NCBI GenBank assembly: GCA_020161845.1
Contig: JAIUNK010000001.1
Span: 124,001-188,000, forward strand
Source: Actinomycetota bacterium
Lineage (GTDB): Bacteria > Actinomycetota > Actinomycetes > Actinomycetales > Dermatophilaceae
Direction: 5' to 3'
DNA: 64,000 nucleotides
Part shown: piece after piece, positions 22,951 through 63,812 of the stretch
How the letters are laid out: every line of letters starts with the position of its first letter
Position numbering within the stretch: position 1 is the first letter of the stretch
The notes under the pieces: generated by a model
What the model was told of the DNA's origin: nothing
The model's database searches: none
What the model saw: only the letters and a program-made list of their open reading frames with translations
Translations under genes and position numbers: made by a program

Positions 22951-23179
22951 AGGTACTCCTTCGTACCAATCGGGGCCCGGGATCGCCGGGCCGGCCGCAG
23001 ACCGCCCGTCGCGGTGGCGTCGGGCGGCGGCAACCGCCCCGGTGGGACGGGCTGCACGTGTCCTCGACACCGTACCTGAGATGTGGGTCACACCGCCCGC
23101 GATGCAGCGGGGCAAGCTCGGGAGCTGGGCAGCTGGGGGCCTGGGTGGCCTCGATGGCCCGATGGCGGGTGCTGTTCAG

Positions 23180-23839
23180 ATGTCCAAGACCCCGGCCGAT
23201 GGGATCGCTGTGACCCACAACTCCGTGTCCGGCGTGCATCGCCCGCGAGCACGGAGCCGAGGTCTCGTCGGACCCGCGGGCGGGCTGCTCCTGAGCGGCA
23301 CGCTCGCCGTTCTGCTCTTCGCCGCGGCCGCACCGCAATTCGCGGCGGCCGTGGGGCAGACCGGCCGTCCCGGGGTCGACGCGACGGTCCTCGCCTGTCC
23401 GGGACCGGGGGGTACCGGGCCGGCCTGCACCGTCAGCGTCCCCCGGGACGGCCACAGCGTCGCCCTGCCGCTGGACCACGCGCGCTGGTTGTTCCCGGAG
23501 CCCGGGGACGCCGTTCGGGTCGTCGTCGATGAGGCGGACCGCGCGGCGCCGGCCGGGTGGGCACCGTGGCTCGCGGCCGGCGCGCTGCTGGCGTTGGGGC
23601 TGATCATGCTCGGATCGGCGGTCCGCTGGGGGCGCACGGTGCTGAGCCGCGCTGTCGCGGAGCTGAGCGAGTATGCCGACTCGGGTGCCGGTTCTCGTGC
23701 CGCCCGCCCGTACGACGTGCGCGGTGTCGACCCGTACCACGTACGCGGTGTCGACCCGTACGACGCACGCGGTGTCGACCCGTACGACGTACGGGGTGAC
23801 GACCCCCGCGACCGGCCGGGGCGGCACTCGGCCGCCTGA
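23180..23839 (+). CDS. Two-helix membrane protein with repeat tail
   Basis: A 219-residue protein with a membrane helix near 35-55 (LLLSGTLAVLLFAAAAP), an external-looking loop of about 85 residues with two Cys (LACPGPGGTGPACTVSVP), and a second helix near 145-165 (LAAGALLALGLIML). The C-terminal cytoplasmic tail has four copies of an eight-residue unit like YDVRGVDP, encoded by near-identical 24-bp DNA repeats. The disulfide-capable loop suggests an extracytoplasmic domain; function unknown. The start is uncertain: a GTG ten codons later would also give the first helix, and neither has a good ribosome-binding site. Confidence 0.7.
   Translation: MSKTPADGIAVTHNSVSGVHRPRARSRGLVGPAGGLLLSGTLAVLLFAAAAPQFAAAVGQTGRPGVDATVLACPGPGGTGPACTVSVPRDGHSVALPLDHARWLFPEPGDAVRVVVDEADRAAPAGWAPWLAAGALLALGLIMLGSAVRWGRTVLSRAVAELSEYADSGAGSRAARPYDVRGVDPYHVRGVDPYDARGVDPYDVRGDDPRDRPGRHSAA
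23709..23804 (+). repeat. 24-bp tandem repeats encoding Y-x-x-R-G-V-D-P
   Basis: Four near-identical 24-bp units (pattern TACGACGTRCGCGGTGTCGA plus CCCG) in the 3' end of the two-helix membrane protein gene. Variation is mostly in the second codon (Asp or His) and in the last copy, so the expansion looks recent. Confidence 0.8.
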
Positions 23840-57694: not shown

Positions 57695-58378
57695 GTGGCG
57701 CCTTCGGCCCGCCGCCCGTGGCGGCGCCGCGGCCTCCTCGCGGCCGCCGTGGGGGTCGTCGCGCTGGCCGGCGTCGTCGGTGGGTCGGCACTGTGGGTGC
57801 GCACCGCCGCGTCGGGCCGCGTGTATGACGTCGCCGCGGCGCCACCGCGCGACGTGGCCCTGGTGCTCGGCGCGGGGCTGCGCGCGGACGGTACGCCGAC
57901 GCCCTATCTGGCCGCCCGACTCGACCTCGCCCGCGACCTCTACGCCCGCGGCACCGTCCAGGTGGTGCTGGTCTCGGGGGACAACCGCACCGAGGCGTAC
58001 GACGAGCCGACCGCGATGCGGCGCTATCTGCTGGCGGCCGGCGTCCCCGCCGATCGCGTCGTGGCCGACTTTGCCGGGCTGGACACCTACGACTCCTGCT
58101 ATCGCGCGGCTGAGATCTTCGGCGTACGCTCGGTGATCGTCGTGTCACAGAGTTATCACGTTCCCCGGGCTCTGGCGGTCTGCCGGGCGCTCGGGCTCGA
58201 CGCTGTTGCCGTAGGAGATGACACCGGCCGCACCAGTCCGGCGACGTGGACGGCCGGGGAACAGCGCGAAATCCTGGCCGCCGTGAAGGCCACCTGGGAC
58301 GTCCTGTCGCAACGCACCCCGATCCTCGGCCCCCGCGAGTCGAGCGTGGCGACCGTCCTCTCCCACCAGCATCGATAA
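57695..58378 (+). CDS. YdcF/SanA-like DUF218 protein
   Basis: A 227-residue membrane-anchored protein: a basic N-terminus (ARRPWRRRG), one hydrophobic helix (LLAAAVGVVALAGVVGGSAL) and an external DUF218 domain. ALVLGAGLRADGTPTPYLAA, VSGDNRTEAYDEPTAM, DFAGLDTYDSCYRA and VVSQSYHVPRALAVCR are the SanA/YdcF landmarks. SanA is linked to envelope barrier function; the enzymatic role is unknown. GTG start with weak ribosome-binding site, 5 bp after the UDP-glucose pyrophosphorylase gene, hinting at a shared envelope-glycan role. Confidence 0.9.
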   Translation: MAPSARRPWRRRGLLAAAVGVVALAGVVGGSALWVRTAASGRVYDVAAAPPRDVALVLGAGLRADGTPTPYLAARLDLARDLYARGTVQVVLVSGDNRTEAYDEPTAMRRYLLAAGVPADRVVADFAGLDTYDSCYRAAEIFGVRSVIVVSQSYHVPRALAVCRALGLDAVAVGDDTGRTSPATWTAGEQREILAAVKATWDVLSQRTPILGPRESSVATVLSHQHR

Positions 58379-58670
58379 CGTCTTGGACAGATGTCCGATG
58401 AGGGCGCTCCGGGAGCCCACTTTCGTTCGAATTGGACGTCCGACTTAAAGCAAAGTGATCCCCTCGTCCAGGTCGAGCGTGCGTCAACTGCGGGTCTGGA
58501 TTTCGCTGTCACTGTTGTTTCCCGACAGCAGGTAGTGCGTCCGGAGCGCAGGCCCGGTAGCCTTGGGCCTTTTCATCGAATCTTCATCACAGAGGTCCTC
58601 CGTCTTTAACGCACGGTCGATTGTCTTGGTCGCGAAGCCAAGACCGTCAACTCACTCGCTGGAGGCCCCC
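58379..58670 (+). other. Long leader region upstream of the NFTQS protein gene
   Basis: 292 bp with no supported gene, less G+C-rich than most of the window. A small hairpin (GTCTTGG, 8-nt loop, CCAAGAC) at 58623-58644 would lie in the 5' leader 27 bp before the start codon. No clear promoter could be named. Confidence 0.45.
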
Positions 58671-59015
58671 ATGTTCCGCATCCGTACCGCCGTCGCCACC
58701 GCCGCCGTTTCGCTCGCCGCCGTGGTGGGATTCGCGGGGAGCGCTCAGGCCGCGCCGCTGGCGGGCAACTTCACGCAGAGCAACTTCACGCAGAGCAACT
58801 TCACGCAGTCCAACTTCACGCAGTCGAACTTCACCCAGTCGAACTTCACGCAGAGCAACTTCACCCAGTCGAACTTCACGCAGTCCAACTTCACGCAGTC
58901 CAACTTCACCCAGTCCAACTTCACCCAGTCGAACTTCACCCAGTCGAACTTCACGCAGTCGAACTTCACGCAGTCGGTGCTGCCGCTCTGGGCGCAGGCG
59001 GGCCTGCTCGGCTGA
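58671..59015 (+). CDS. Secreted pentapeptide-repeat protein, 14 perfect NFTQS units
   Basis: A 114-residue exported protein: a Sec signal peptide (MFRIRTAVATAAVSLAAVVG to about AQA), a short APLAG, then 14 uninterrupted copies of NFTQS (residues 33-102) and the tail VLPLWAQAGLLG. Read in register as S-N-F-T-Q, the unit fits the pentapeptide-repeat consensus (small residue, Asp/Asn, Leu/Phe, Ser/Thr, polar), which folds as a right-handed square beta-helix; 14 units give 3.5 turns. GGAGG lies five bases before the ATG. Synonymous changes at Ser and Thr codons show the protein sequence is held constant. Function unknown; a surface or ice/ligand-binding role is speculation. Confidence 0.85.
   Translation: MFRIRTAVATAAVSLAAVVGFAGSAQAAPLAGNFTQSNFTQSNFTQSNFTQSNFTQSNFTQSNFTQSNFTQSNFTQSNFTQSNFTQSNFTQSNFTQSNFTQSVLPLWAQAGLLG
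58767..58976 (+). repeat. 15-bp tandem repeat, 14 copies
   Basis: Unit AACTTCACSCAGWSS encoding NFTQS. Copies differ only at synonymous third positions of Thr (ACG/ACC) and by AGC/TCC/TCG for Ser. No spacers, so not a CRISPR array. Confidence 0.95.
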
Positions 59016-59060: not shown

Positions 59061-60125
59061 TCAGATCATGGCGGGGAGCCAGCCGATGAACTCGGCCCCC
59101 AGCCCCCGACCGCTGCTACGGGCGACGAGTTCCCCGCCGTGGGCCCGGATGATCTCCCGAGCGATCGTCAGGCCGATGCCGGACCCGGTCTCCCCGCGTG
59201 ACTCGCGTCGGCCGACCACCCGATAGAAGCGCTCGAAGATCCGCTCCAGGTCCGCGGGGTCGATACCCTCCCCGGTGTCCCGCACCGAGAACCACGTCCA
59301 CCGGCCGGATCGGCCGATCCGCAGCGAGATGGTGCCACCCGGTGTGGTCGCCCGGACCGCATTGCCCACCAGATTGCGCACCACCTGCGAGACGCGGTCC
59401 TGGTCGACGTACACCGGCACCAGTTCCGCCCCCGGCCGCACGTCCAGCACGAGGCCGGCGTCCTCCACCTGCGGACGCAGCCGTTCCGCCGCGGCCACCA
59501 CCACCCCGCGCAGGTCGAACAGCAGCGGCCGCAGGTCCAGCCGGCCCTCCTCGGCCCGGGACAGCGCGGACAGGTCGTCGGAGAGCCGCCGCAGTCGCCG
59601 TACCTCGTCGGTGACGTGCCCCAGTTCCTCGGCGTCGATCGGGATGATCCCGTCGATCATCCCCTCGACGTAGCCGTCGATGATCGTCAGGGGCGTACGC
59701 ATCTCGTGCGCGACCTCGCCGAGCAACCGGCGCCTGCGGGTCTCGGTGTCGGCCAACGCCCCGCGCAGCCGGTTGAGGTCGGTGACGAGGCTGCCCAGGC
59801 TTCCGTCGACGGCGGGCAGGGGTTCCTGGTATTCCCCGGTCCCGATCGTGGCCGTCGCGTGCCGTAGTCGGCTCAGCGGCAGCACGAGCCGGTACGCCGC
59901 GACGCAGGCGACCAGCGCGCTCAGCGCCAGGCCGACGGCGGCCCCGGCCGCCAGCCCCCGATCGATCCGCTCCACCGTGGCCGACATCGGCCAGTCGTGC
60001 GGCGCCTCGTTCAGATCGGTCAACATGGCCAGCACGAGGTGCCGGCCGAACAGGGCCGCGACCACGACGGCGGTCGCGGCGACCAGCAGGTGAGCGCCCA
60101 CCGTGCGCAAATACATGCTGCTCAT
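59061..60125 (-). CDS. Sensor histidine kinase of a two-component system
   Basis: A 354-residue membrane kinase: a first membrane helix (LLVAATAVVVAALFG), a short external loop, a second helix (GLAAGAAVGLALSALVACVA), a HAMP linker (RLVLPLSRLRHATATIG), then a canonical core with H-box His140 in GEVAHEMRTPLT, N-box NLVGNAVRA, G1 box VRDTGEGI, F-box FERFYR and G2 box GSGIGLTIA. The loop is short (about 25 residues), so it may sense membrane or envelope state. It starts 8 bp after the response-regulator stop and so is its partner. It converges on the NFTQS gene. Confidence 0.94.
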   Translation of the reverse strand: MSSMYLRTVGAHLLVAATAVVVAALFGRHLVLAMLTDLNEAPHDWPMSATVERIDRGLAAGAAVGLALSALVACVAAYRLVLPLSRLRHATATIGTGEYQEPLPAVDGSLGSLVTDLNRLRGALADTETRRRRLLGEVAHEMRTPLTIIDGYVEGMIDGIIPIDAEELGHVTDEVRRLRRLSDDLSALSRAEEGRLDLRPLLFDLRGVVVAAAERLRPQVEDAGLVLDVRPGAELVPVYVDQDRVSQVVRNLVGNAVRATTPGGTISLRIGRSGRWTWFSVRDTGEGIDPADLERIFERFYRVVGRRESRGETGSGIGLTIAREIIRAHGGELVARSSGRGLGAEFIGWLPAMI

Positions 60126-60132
60126 CGGGCCC

Positions 60133-60987
60133 TCATGCGCCTGGCGTGGCGGGCGTTCGCGGCCATTCCCGCGACTCCTCGACAGGCGGCACGGCGAGTT
60201 CCTCGGCAGGCTGCTCGGCGGGCTGCGTGACCGGCGACGCGACCGGCGGCGCTGCAGCTCCCTGGGCCAGTGGCTGCAGCAGGAACTTGTAGCCCACGCC
60301 GCGGACGGTTCCGATGATGCGCGGCCGGGCCGCATCGTCGTGCAGCACCCGGCGGATGTTGCGGACGTGGACGTCGACAACGCGCTCGTCACCATAGAAG
60401 TCGTAGCCCCAGACCCGCTCCAACAGCTGGGCCCGCGAGAAGACCCGCCCGCAGTCCTCGGCCAGCGCCCAGAGCAGGTCGAATTCGAGGGTCGACAGGC
60501 TGACCTCGGCGCCGTCCACGTGGATCTCGCGGCTGCGCGCGTCGACCGTCAGGCCCGGGAAGCGCCGCAACTCCTCGAGCCGGGCCGCGTGCGGGGCCAG
60601 CGCGGCGCGCGGACCGGACCGGTCCCGCCGCAGCACCGTGTTGACCCGTGCGACGACCTCGCGGGGGCTGAACGGTTTGGTGACATAGTCATCCGCCCCG
60701 ATGGTCAGCCCGACCAGCTTGTCCAACTCCTCGCTGCGGGCCGTGACCAGGATGATGTAGACCTCGCTGGTGGCCCGCATCCGCCGCAGCACTTCCATGC
60801 CGTCCATGTCGGGCAGCCCGACGTCGAGCAGGATGAGCACCGGATCGACGTGCCCGAAGACCTCCAACGCCTGGGTGCCCGAGCCGGCTTCGTCGACGCC
60901 GAACCCGTCCGCCTCGAGATAGGCCCGCAGGACCCGACGAATCTGGGCCTCGTCGTCCACGACGAGAATCCGTCGTCGTTGCGTCAT
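60133..60987 (-). CDS. OmpR/PhoB-family response regulator
   Basis: A 284-residue regulator. The receiver domain has DDE at 11-13, the phosphoacceptor Asp55 in LILLDVGLPDMDG and Lys104 in VTKPF. The winged-helix DNA-binding domain follows (VSLSTLEFDLLWALAEDCGR, VVDVHVRNIRRVL, IIGTVRGVGYKF). An extra C-terminal tail of about 45 residues, Pro/Ala/Glu-rich, is unusual. First gene of the two-gene unit with the kinase. An inverted repeat (ACGTCCACCG...CGGTGGACGT) upstream could be an autoregulatory site, but this is inference. Confidence 0.93.
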   Translation of the reverse strand: MTQRRRILVVDDEAQIRRVLRAYLEADGFGVDEAGSGTQALEVFGHVDPVLILLDVGLPDMDGMEVLRRMRATSEVYIILVTARSEELDKLVGLTIGADDYVTKPFSPREVVARVNTVLRRDRSGPRAALAPHAARLEELRRFPGLTVDARSREIHVDGAEVSLSTLEFDLLWALAEDCGRVFSRAQLLERVWGYDFYGDERVVDVHVRNIRRVLHDDAARPRIIGTVRGVGYKFLLQPLAQGAAAPPVASPVTQPAEQPAEELAVPPVEESREWPRTPATPGA

Positions 60988-61315
60988 CCGTGTCCCACCG
61001 TCGCCTTCCACCCCGCCTGCCCTGCGCCCGGCCTCCCCCTGCCTGGGTCGTGTGGCCGCAGGCGCGTTGCGGCACACGTCCACCGACCGCCGCGGCGCAC
61101 GGTGGACGTCGCCGGAGATGGCCGAAAACTGCTGGCCCACACCGCAGTCACCGCGACAAGGGTGTGCCCTTGCACCCATTGTGGGACGTCCGACCCGTGC
61201 AGCACCTCCGACGCGCTGGCGGAACTCGACCGCGCCGCTCGGCAGACCGCCTCGATCAGGGACCATCCTCGTCCCGGAACGGGCGGCCCGAGGCCGGATC
61301 CAGCAGGATGAGGGA
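60988..61315. other. Divergent intergenic region with two inverted repeats
   Basis: 328 bp between the response regulator and the helical repeat protein. No gene is supported. A perfect 10-bp inverted repeat (ACGTCCACCG) with 14-nt spacing lies at 61076-61109, and a short one (CAAGGG TGTG CCCTTG) at 61157-61172; either could be regulatory. Confidence 0.45.
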
Positions 61316-62140
61316 ATGCGCCTCCCCGGACCCCATGACCTGTTCACCGCCGCGACGACCATGCGCGACGGGGTGCAGTCGGCCTATGACGACATCGCGG
61401 ACCTGATCGATCTGGCACCGCGCCTGTTCACGCTGGTGGATCGGGTCGAGGTCATGGTCGCCCGAGCCGAGCGGCTGCTCGGCCGGGCCGACGAACTGCT
61501 GGGCGATGCCGCGTCGATGGCCGCCCGCGGCGAGGCGGCGCTCACCCAGGGGGAGACGCTGCTGCGGCGCGGGGAGGCGGTGCTGGCCACGGCCGAGGTG
61601 ACGGTGCTCGAGGCGAAGAGTACGGCGGACGCGGCGCGGGCCACGACGGCCGAGGCGGCCCGCGCCGTGGCCGGGGCCGAGCAGACCCTCGTCGGCGCCG
61701 AACGGCTGCTGCACCGCGCGACCGCCCTGGTCGACCCGCTGGAGCCGATGACTGCGCGCCTGCTGCCCGTCGCGGACCGGCTGATCCCGATGGCGGACCG
61801 GCTGATGCCGATGGCGGACCGGCTGATGCCGATGGCGGACCGGCTCATGCCGGCCGCCGAGCAGCTCACCCCGGTGGTGGAGCGGCTCGGCGCCTCGACC
61901 GCCGATGTCGAGGTGGAGGCGCTGGTGCGGATGCTCGACCGGATGCCCCAACTGACCCACCACCTGGAGGCCGACGTCCTGCCGATGCTGACCACGTTGC
62001 AGCAGGTCGGACCCGATGTGCACGACATCCTCGACGCCGTCACCGACCTCAGCCGCGCGATCAAGGGCATGCCCGGCATGAACCTGCTGGTCCGCCGCGG
62101 CGAGCGCAAGGAGGAGGAAGAGCAGGACGACGCGGGCTGA
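61316..62140 (+). CDS. Helical repeat protein (coiled-coil/phasin-like), function unknown
   Basis: A 274-residue protein that is almost entirely amphipathic helix, Ala/Leu/Glu-rich. Residues 153-180 hold tandem heptads of the type ADRLMPM, encoded by 21-bp DNA repeats at 61772-61855. The C-terminus is highly charged (RRGERKEEEEQDDAG). There is no signal peptide or clear membrane helix. The pattern recalls phasin- or apolipoprotein-like surface binders and methyl-accepting-type coiled coils, but I do not recognise the family. ATG with a weak GAGGG before it. It is divergent from the two-component system and converges on corA. Confidence 0.75.
   Translation: MRLPGPHDLFTAATTMRDGVQSAYDDIADLIDLAPRLFTLVDRVEVMVARAERLLGRADELLGDAASMAARGEAALTQGETLLRRGEAVLATAEVTVLEAKSTADAARATTAEAARAVAGAEQTLVGAERLLHRATALVDPLEPMTARLLPVADRLIPMADRLMPMADRLMPMADRLMPAAEQLTPVVERLGASTADVEVEALVRMLDRMPQLTHHLEADVLPMLTTLQQVGPDVHDILDAVTDLSRAIKGMPGMNLLVRRGERKEEEEQDDAG
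61772..61855 (+). repeat. 21-bp tandem repeats encoding ADRLMPM
   Basis: Four units of GCGGACCGGCTGATGCCGATG, the first with ATC for ATG and the last diverged at its end. In frame within the helical repeat protein gene. Confidence 0.85.
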
Positions 62141-62190: not shown

Positions 62191-63342
62191 CTAGAGCCAG
62201 TCGCGGCGCCGGAACGCGACGTACAGCCCCACCGCGCCCACCACGACGAGCACGACGCTCTGCCAGAGCCCGGCGGTGTCCTGGAATCCCGGATAGGGCA
62301 CGTTCTGCCCGAACCAGCCGGTGACCGCGGTGGGCACGGCGATGATGGCGGCCCACGCGGCGAGCTTCTTCATGACGCTGTTGAGGCGGGCGTCCTGCAG
62401 CGACAGGTTGGTCTCGAACACCGAGGACACCATGTCCCGCAGCGACTCGGTCCACTCGGCGGCCCGCAGGACGTGGTCGTACAGGTCGTCGTACCACGGC
62501 CGCAGCGTCGCCTCCCCGGCCACCGCCGCCGCATCGCCGGGGCGCGGCTCGCGGTGCCGCAGGACGCCGTTGACCAGCTCGCGCATCGGCAGGACGACTC
62601 GGCGGAGCTGGACGAGTTCCTTGCGCATCCGGTAGGTGGCCTGCTGCACCTCCCGCGTCGGCGCCGGGTCCTGGAACAGCACGTCCTCGATGTCCTCGAT
62701 CGCGTCGTCGATGCGCTGGATGGTCTCGAAGTGCGAGTCGACGACCGCGTCGATCAGCCCGTGCGTGAGGGCGCCGACACCCGCCGGACCGGACCGGACC
62801 AGCAGGTCGGCGTTGTCGTCCCAGCGGGCGAGCACCTCCTCGATGGGAAAGGCGTCGTCGGGGCGGATGGTGATCAACGCCCGCGGCAGCACGATCGCGC
62901 TGATCTTGGCCAGCCGCAGCCGGGACTGGTGCTCGGCCCGCTCGGTCCGCTCGGCTCGGTCGGCCCGCTCGGTCCGCTCGGCTCGGTCGGCTCGGTCGGT
63001 CCGGTCGGCTCGGTCGCCGGCTGGCTCGTCGTCAAGGCTGGTCGCGTACATCGTCAGCACCACCCGGTCCCCGTGCCGCATGGCTTTGGGCCGCTCCAGG
63101 TGGGCCAGGATGTCCTCGACGCTCTGGCCGCTGATGTTGAGCTCCGTGGCCAGCTCGGCGATCCGGTCCCGGCCCGGCGCGACCAGATCGACCCAGGCGA
63201 GAGCGGCCGGGTCGGCCAGATGGGTGTCGAGGTCGCCCAGCGCGAACGGGGTCGCGGTGAGCCGGCCGTCGCGCCACAGCCGGGTACGGACGGCGGCCCG
63301 GGCCGATGGCCCGGGCCGCGGGGGGCTCGCTGGCTCGCTCAC
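62191..63342 (-). CDS. CorA-family magnesium/divalent cation transporter
   Basis: A 383-residue CorA-type channel: cytoplasmic alpha-beta domain, long helix and two C-terminal membrane helices (KKLAAWAAIIAVPTAVTGW and GLWQSVVLVVVGAVGLYVAF). The pore-loop signature is FGQNVPYPGF, where classical CorA has GMN; G-x-N variants are known in the family, and ion preference cannot be told. An insert of alternating Asp/Glu-Arg repeats (RADRTDRADRAERTERAD) interrupts the cytoplasmic domain near residue 115, encoded by short tandem DNA repeats. GTG start without a strong ribosome-binding site. Confidence 0.9.
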   Translation of the reverse strand: MSEPASPPRPGPSARAAVRTRLWRDGRLTATPFALGDLDTHLADPAALAWVDLVAPGRDRIAELATELNISGQSVEDILAHLERPKAMRHGDRVVLTMYATSLDDEPAGDRADRTDRADRAERTERADRAERTERAEHQSRLRLAKISAIVLPRALITIRPDDAFPIEEVLARWDDNADLLVRSGPAGVGALTHGLIDAVVDSHFETIQRIDDAIEDIEDVLFQDPAPTREVQQATYRMRKELVQLRRVVLPMRELVNGVLRHREPRPGDAAAVAGEATLRPWYDDLYDHVLRAAEWTESLRDMVSSVFETNLSLQDARLNSVMKKLAAWAAIIAVPTAVTGWFGQNVPYPGFQDTAGLWQSVVLVVVGAVGLYVAFRRRDWL

Positions 63343-63362
63343 GCGCCCATTATGGGCGCCGG

Positions 63363-63659
63363 TCAGGGCAGCTGGTCCTGCGGGCCGGCGGTGCCGTCGC
63401 TGCCGCCGGAGCGGTACGTCGTGAGCTGCTCGGCGCCGAGCAGGCGCTGAGCCGTCGCCTCGTCCGGCATCACGAACCACAGCAGCGGATAGACGATGAG
63501 CTGGCTGCCCGGCAGGAGCAGCAGCAGGACCATGATCAGCCGGACGGCGCCCGGATCGGTCCCGAACTTGCGGGCCAGCCCCGAGCAGACACCGCCCAGC
63601 CAGCGGTCGTCGCCGCGGACCAGTCCGGACTTCGCCATCGTGGTGTGCAGGCCGTTCAT
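63363..63659 (-). CDS. PspC-domain membrane protein
   Basis: A 98-residue protein with the PspC signature GLVRGDDRWLGGVCSGLARK and FGTDPGAVRLIMVLLLLLPG, followed by a second hydrophobic stretch (SQLIVYPLLWFVMPD). PspC proteins take part in envelope-stress responses and may bind PspA or regulators. AAGGGGA precedes the ATG with good spacing. It lies 20 bp upstream of the corA start on the same strand, so the two are probably co-transcribed. Confidence 0.9.
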   Translation of the reverse strand: MNGLHTTMAKSGLVRGDDRWLGGVCSGLARKFGTDPGAVRLIMVLLLLLPGSQLIVYPLLWFVMPDEATAQRLLGAEQLTTYRSGGSDGTAGPQDQLP

Positions 63660-63812
63660 GTCGTTCCCCTTTGCATGGTCGCGGCGGTGTGCCCGGGCCG
63701 CAGGTGGTGGTCGGTGGGGATTCGCCGAGGTGGCTTGTCCCGATGAGTCCACTGTGCCGCGGTGCCCGGCCCGCAACCATGGGGTGCCACCCCGACCGGT
63801 CCCTGATCCGAC

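Follow-up and report, generated by a model that had tools for sequence, protein, structure and literature searches.

A gene found in one actinobacterial genus encodes a likely secreted protein of identical pentapeptide units

What keeps every copy of a short peptide motif identical within a protein while the DNA that encodes it drifts? The question is raised by a small gene in the 64,000-nucleotide stretch of DNA analysed here (hereafter the window), whose product consists largely of 14 uninterrupted NFTQS pentapeptides. We compared the gene with its orthologues, its neighbours and known repeat families. The answer we tentatively favour, at somewhat less than an even chance, is that the gene encodes a secreted, regulated, self-associating β-strand protein.

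The gene and its product

An earlier note, made from the window's letters, had placed 14 identical NFTQS units at 58671–59015, and translation bears out both the coordinates and the count. The gene has the following parts.

58661–58665, plus strand: ribosome-binding sequence GGAGG, 5 bases before the ATG, invariant in four of four orthologues
58671–59015, plus strand: whole repeat gene, 114 amino acids plus stop, translated as signal peptide, 14 NFTQS units and hydrophobic tail
58671–58751, plus strand: predicted signal peptide, residues 1–27, ending in AQA (by eye), with an A-x-A site in four of four orthologues
58767–58976, plus strand: NFTQS array, 14 uninterrupted units in exact coding register, with 5 DNA versions of the unit
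58977–59012, plus strand: C-terminal tail VLPLWAQAGLLG, whose A-x-A-G-L-x-G end is invariant in the alignment of four of four orthologues

Tandem Repeats Finder reports the array as a 15-bp period with 14.0 copies (58766–58975), and a short linker separates it from the predicted signal peptide. The note's suggestion that the protein is secreted is supported as likely by the A-x-A sites, which were read by eye. The mature orthologous proteins are free of Cys, have a net charge of 0 to −3 and contain 10–15 aromatic residues. Their combined Gln and Asn content is 29–33% in the genomes with NFTQS units and only 12% in a fourth orthologue, whose unit is TYTQS.

Known families describe the protein in part. 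Read in the register S-N-F-T-Q the array fits the pentapeptide-repeat consensus, as had been proposed, and Pfam PF00805 matches the window protein above its cut-off (E=9.8e-19; 67 bits against 20.2). NCBIfam matches fall far below cut-off, the best being HetL at 35.7 bits against 260, and for ice binding there are only sub-threshold matches to the Pfam family CfAFP, in both the window protein (14.5 bits) and its Austwickia chelonae orthologue (16.8; cut-off 25.9). The searches found no homologue of known function. A partial literature search returned nothing on an NFTQS or TYTQS repeat gene; in the excerpt available, the string TYTQS belongs to a synthetic glycosylation peptide.

Other short repeats of the window also lie in open reading frames. 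A near-perfect 21-bp repeat (61745–61852) encodes (PMADRLM)n heptads, perhaps a coiled-coil, in a plus-strand frame (61052–62140). A 27-bp repeat (62931–63028) encodes a charged (DRAERTERA)-like insertion in a minus-strand frame (62191–63780) that by eye resembles a CorA-type transporter. At 23707–23805, 4.1 copies of a 24-bp repeat encode (YDVRGVDP)-like octapeptides at the C-terminus of a plus-strand frame (23042–23839).

A conserved locus with a candidate operator

All four genomes sampled from the window's genus, among which two are closely related, carry the gene, and each time it lies downstream of a DUF218 gene. The genus includes Austwickia chelonae. Uninterrupted NFTQS units number 14 in the window, 12 in A. 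chelonae NBRC 105200 and 9 in genome G002, and genome G003 carries the TYTQS version. The surroundings in the window are as follows.

57695–58378, plus strand: DUF218 (SanA-like) protein, the upstream neighbour (PF02698, E=5e-26), with a relative at the same place in four of four genomes
58572–58587, plus strand: 16-bp direct repeat TTCAT-CGAATC-TTCAT with an 11-bp period, a candidate binding site for an OmpR/PhoB-type regulator
59061–60104, minus strand: sensor histidine kinase (HisKA and HATPase_c), start unsettled, which separates repeat gene and regulator in the window alone of the four
60133–60984, minus strand: OmpR/PhoB-family response regulator (Response_reg and Trans_reg_C; NCBIfam matches below cut-offs), a neighbour in four of four genomes

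The window and loci L013 and L014 share an order of UDP-glucose pyrophosphorylase, DUF218, repeat gene and opposing OmpR/PhoB-type regulator; the gene order of locus L002 was examined from DUF218 onwards. An exact search finds TTCAYNGAANCTTCAY once in each of the four genomes, always upstream of the repeat gene, and the reversed pattern used as control occurs in none. The looser pattern TTCAYN6TTCAY occurs once in the window against 0.09 expected, and 8 of 100 shuffles reach one occurrence. A scan for sigma-70 promoters and terminators found none.

The spacing of the direct repeat suggests which protein might read it. PhoP of Mycobacterium tuberculosis binds direct repeats of a 7-bp motif set 4 bp apart, an 11-bp period like that of the candidate operator, and according to the same source every known site of the OmpR/PhoB family is a direct repeat (PMC4832192). 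By this analogy, the neighbouring regulator may bind the 16-bp candidate operator.

Apparent restriction to the genus

Within the samples searched, the repeat gene looks restricted to its genus. A peptide-pattern search of 84,980 species genomes, a set from which the window's own genome and records close to it may be missing, matched 66 stretches, of which 4 were confirmed; one of these is a true relative, the A. chelonae NBRC 105200 protein, with its 12 NFTQS units and a similar tail. In the family sample, the window protein matched 8 of 186 genomes at E<=0.001, four in the genus and four among the 182 others, and the most divergent orthologue as query matched 4 of 186, every one within the genus. 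Wider samples returned 6 of 396 genomes in the order (window protein, E<=1e-6), 1 of 394 in the class (G003 protein, E<=1e-4) and 6 of 396 in the phylum (A. chelonae protein, E<=1e-8). Each query's own genome is among these: it is the sole match in the class and is joined by five others in the order and in the phylum.

The outside candidates that were read are not orthologues. The four family matches (L009–L012) and the five order matches (L016–L020) are other repeats or ordinary pentapeptide proteins. Of the five phylum matches, the one read (L056, 1288–1764) is an ordinary actinobacterial pentapeptide-repeat protein with diverse units and a lipoprotein-like signal. L003 is likewise an ordinary pentapeptide protein, and the match to L005 covers the signal peptide alone. 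In Corynebacterium urinipleomorphum (L004, 5020–5075), three units of very similar 15-bp DNA form a look-alike with a stop in the NFTQS frame.

We also approached the question from the neighbouring gene. A DUF218 relative is present at E<=1e-30 in 42 of 186 family genomes, and the loci of 30 were scanned crudely over roughly 1.5 kb on the downstream side. The repeat gene appeared in the 4 genus loci; the architecture was absent from the other 26, the orientation of one of which is doubtful. Four of those 26 showed a signal-like stretch, and in three the scan picked up a tetrapeptide repeat.

Constraint on the unit

The amino-acid sequence of the unit appears to be under constraint, a conclusion supported by the way its codons vary. 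Across the three NFTQS genomes all 35 units are identical in protein, and the 40 codon changes among them are 100% synonymous. The 14-, 12- and 9-unit arrays contain 5, 8 and 5 distinct DNA versions of the unit, with 15, 17 and 8 codon-level departures from their own consensus; none is non-synonymous, and switches between AGC and TCN serine codons are included. In the window the variation lies in Thr (ACG/ACC) and Ser (AGC/TCC/TCG) codons, in agreement with the note's remark that codons differ only synonymously. The probability that all 15 changes of the window array would be synonymous is about 6e-13 by a crude estimate that treats changes as independent and ignores copying between units, and serves as a guide only. 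Translated in the other five frames, the window array gives 5 to 8 different peptide units, and across the three NFTQS arrays the range is 5 to 11.

The arrays also seem to have turned over between genomes. Unit-by-unit codon correspondence was undetectable in the pairwise comparisons of NFTQS arrays, whose best offsets were matched by 927, 1280 and 724 of 2000 shuffles; therefore units appear to have been gained, lost or recoded with the peptide staying fixed. Compared with the other two NFTQS genomes, the window's neighbour proteins show 63–65% (DUF218) and 68–69% (regulator) identity, and the pyrophosphorylase is 71% identical to that of G002, the one genome in which it was compared. G001 and G002 resemble one another closely in their neighbour proteins (84% and 93% identity; DUF218 84%). 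Relatives that keep the DNA repeat and lose the frame, the pattern that the note had named as telling against its reading, are not what we find: the orthologues hold the frame and their DNA drifts.

An orthologue that breaks the register

The G003 orthologue separates the motif from its periodicity. It contains 8 exact TYTQS units, a count by exact match that leaves imperfect copies uncounted, with spacers of 2, 3, 2, 2, 6, 5 and 1 residues, so no two units are adjacent; Gly occurs in four of the seven spacers. Its units differ by 6 codon-level changes, every one synonymous. The gene retains its neighbours, the candidate operator, the ribosome-binding sequence, the A-x-A site, the A-x-A-G-L-x-G end and a predicted signal peptide, and the neighbour proteins are 58–70% identical to those of the other three genomes. 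The protein matches 0 Pfam families at E<=0.01.

The five-residue register is thus kept in three orthologues and broken in one. As far as four genomes show, what is constant in the family seems to be an exact unit within each genome rather than a five-residue period. That all 8 units of G003 read TYTQS is as expected if the units must match each other.

A self-stacking protein as the preferred explanation

Taken together, the identity of units within each genome, their concerted difference between genomes, the uncharged, Cys-free and β-prone composition, the tail and the likely export point to units that stack in an extracellular assembly. In the self-associating β-strand protein that we favour, all copies of the β-prone [N/T]-[F/Y]-T-Q-S unit would be kept identical through stacking as ladders of like residues, within one molecule and probably also between molecules. 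The abutting units of three genomes could also be written as pentapeptide-repeat coils, and those of the fourth would form separate strands with short linkers between them. The signal peptide would export the protein, the conserved tail with its Ala, Gly and Leu residues would cap or anchor it, and the neighbouring OmpR/PhoB-type regulator would control the gene through its dedicated direct-repeat operator. The outcome may be a self-assembling extracellular coat or matrix protein of β structure.

Several observations sit less well with self-stacking. NFTQS is unchanged between three genomes, which self-matching alone does not demand and an external partner explains better. The strand assignment comes from a model with a mean pLDDT of 52.6, whose weak structural matches take in pentapeptide-type β-helices rather than amyloids, with FapC the exception, and the Gln and Asn content of the TYTQS orthologue is low.

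Chaplins and rodlins are secreted, self-assembling proteins of Gram-positive bacteria, small actinobacterial products that build a layer on the cell surface. The likeness of the window protein to them lies in a proposed way of working.

Pentapeptide β-helix

The chief alternative is a minimal secreted pentapeptide-repeat protein, which we regard as possible although we lean against it. Its 9–14 units would form a short right-handed quadrilateral β-helix of 2.25–3.5 coils, capped by the tail, whose identical faces would display Thr and Gln for a ligand that is itself repetitive; in the fourth species the fold would have been lost or rebuilt. The sequence of the NFTQS arrays fits this well. S-N-F-T-Q agrees with the widened 2019 consensus at 5 of 5 positions and with the 2006 one at 4 of 5, and the unit counts of 14, 12 and 9 exceed the usual minimum of eight, in the part of the literature available (PMC8145042). 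PF00805 scores above its cut-off of 20.2 bits in three of four orthologues (67, 64.9 and 43.2 bits). Among PDB sequences, the designed pentapeptide solenoid beta1 matches best (4yc5, E=3e-13).

The comparison with solved and characterised members is mixed. Like PF00805 proteins such as MfpA, Qnr, HetL and Rfr32, three of four orthologues have more than 8 contiguous units that fit the consensus, and Rfr32 likewise has a signal peptide (PMC8145042, as far as its text was available). In contrast to those proteins, the window family has units that are all identical, one orthologue that breaks register, at most 3.5 coils and no supported β-helix model for the window protein; the five solved members whose coil counts we consulted have 5 to 9 coils (PMC8145042, in the same part). 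Solenoid beta1, with its variants, differs in being synthetic, 235 residues long and solved, with units unlike each other in the alignment. The consensus, as given in the available part of the same source, tolerates many residues at the two outward positions (PMC8145042), and therefore the fold alone leaves the invariant Thr and Gln unexplained.

Structure prediction gave a contrast that is suggestive only. For single-sequence AlphaFold the window protein was given with its signal peptide and tail, and this lowers the mean score; the best model reached a mean pLDDT of 52.6 and a pTM of 0.31, with about 54–61 over most of the array. In this low-confidence model residues 34–101 are nearly all strand, continuous rather than with a bridge every five residues, and Foldseek found no PDB match at E<=0.001. 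As control we took 86 residues of an ordinary pentapeptide protein, whose best model reached a pLDDT of 71.0 and a pTM of 0.55, showed bridges at five-residue intervals and had 34 matches in the PDB at the same threshold. The remaining four control models were no better than the window protein's (five-model pLDDT 71.0, 48.9, 44.9, 40.4 and 35.8 for the control; 52.6, 52.2, 47.7, 41.8 and 41.5 for the window), so a β-helix stays compatible with the predictions. The window model's weak matches include pentapeptide-type β-helices, starting at E 0.1, which lends the fold some support: among them are SV2 luminal domains (best TM to target 0.61, at rank 6 with E=0.43) and MfpA (E of 0.84 at best). 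FapC, at rank 26, is the amyloid exception; with regard to a functional amyloid, the analysis covered composition and the strand content of the model.

The broken-register orthologue, with Tyr in place of Phe and no Pfam match, is the stronger argument. A periodicity that is inconstant among orthologues argues against the pentapeptide β-helix as a family-wide design. Of the note's proposal of a regular β-helix, the fit of the NFTQS arrays to the consensus thus stands, and the general claim does not extend to the irregularly spaced TYTQS protein.

Other explanations

An external partner could also hold the motif fixed, although we think this unlikely. Each [NT][FY]TQS would then be a linear motif for a single partner, such as a receptor, a modifying or cross-linking enzyme or a wall component, and copy number would set avidity in this multivalent docking or modification substrate. 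The exact motif is retained across differences in spacing and copy number (9, 12 and 14 contiguous units; 8 spaced), and the invariant Thr, Gln and Ser have modifiable side chains. Against this, our searches found no partner, and three of four orthologues wholly lack spacers. N-glycosylation in particular is unlikely: the oligosaccharyltransferase STT3/PglB (PF02516) is absent from all four genus genomes, in a search whose controls were positive in 4 of 14 genomes, all four archaea. The N-x-T sequon to which the note had drawn attention looks irrelevant, as the TYTQS units also lack Asn. Microbial transglutaminase (PF09017) was found in 0 of 4 genus genomes and in none of the controls, which makes that search uninformative.

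A multicopy precursor, secreted and cut into identical small peptides that serve as signals or nutrients, is very improbable. A run of identical short units following a predicted signal peptide would suit it, but the units of the NFTQS orthologues lack obvious processing residues between them, cutting the TYTQS orthologue would yield unequal products (spacers of 1–6 residues), and the conserved tail would go unexplained.

A DNA-level repeat (an iteron, slippage array or antisense RNA) open in one frame by chance has a negligible claim: the array is a 15-bp tandem and the Corynebacterium look-alike indicates that DNA of this kind can come about where no such protein is encoded, but we reject a DNA-level or non-coding RNA function because the drift is silent in one frame only and nothing matches Rfam at the gathering cut-off, and conservation extends to the ribosome-binding site, the A-x-A site and the tail.

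Discussion

A bolder reading, which we hold to be rather doubtful, is that these genes represent secreted proteins of a new kind, in which all copies of a short strand motif are kept identical by selection within a genome while the arrays differ in concert between species (NFTQS in three, TYTQS in one). Such a protein would be a natural homopolymer, governed by self-matching and independent of the β-helix family that it superficially resembles.

The family also carries a caution, since a strong Pfam pentapeptide match need not make an orthologous family a β-helix. The G003 orthologue is a natural experiment that pulls motif and periodicity apart. With 9–14 letter-perfect units encoded by drifted DNA, the NFTQS proteins resemble a designed homopolymer, and they offer a clean system for asking what keeps repeats identical, be it fold, self-assembly or a partner.
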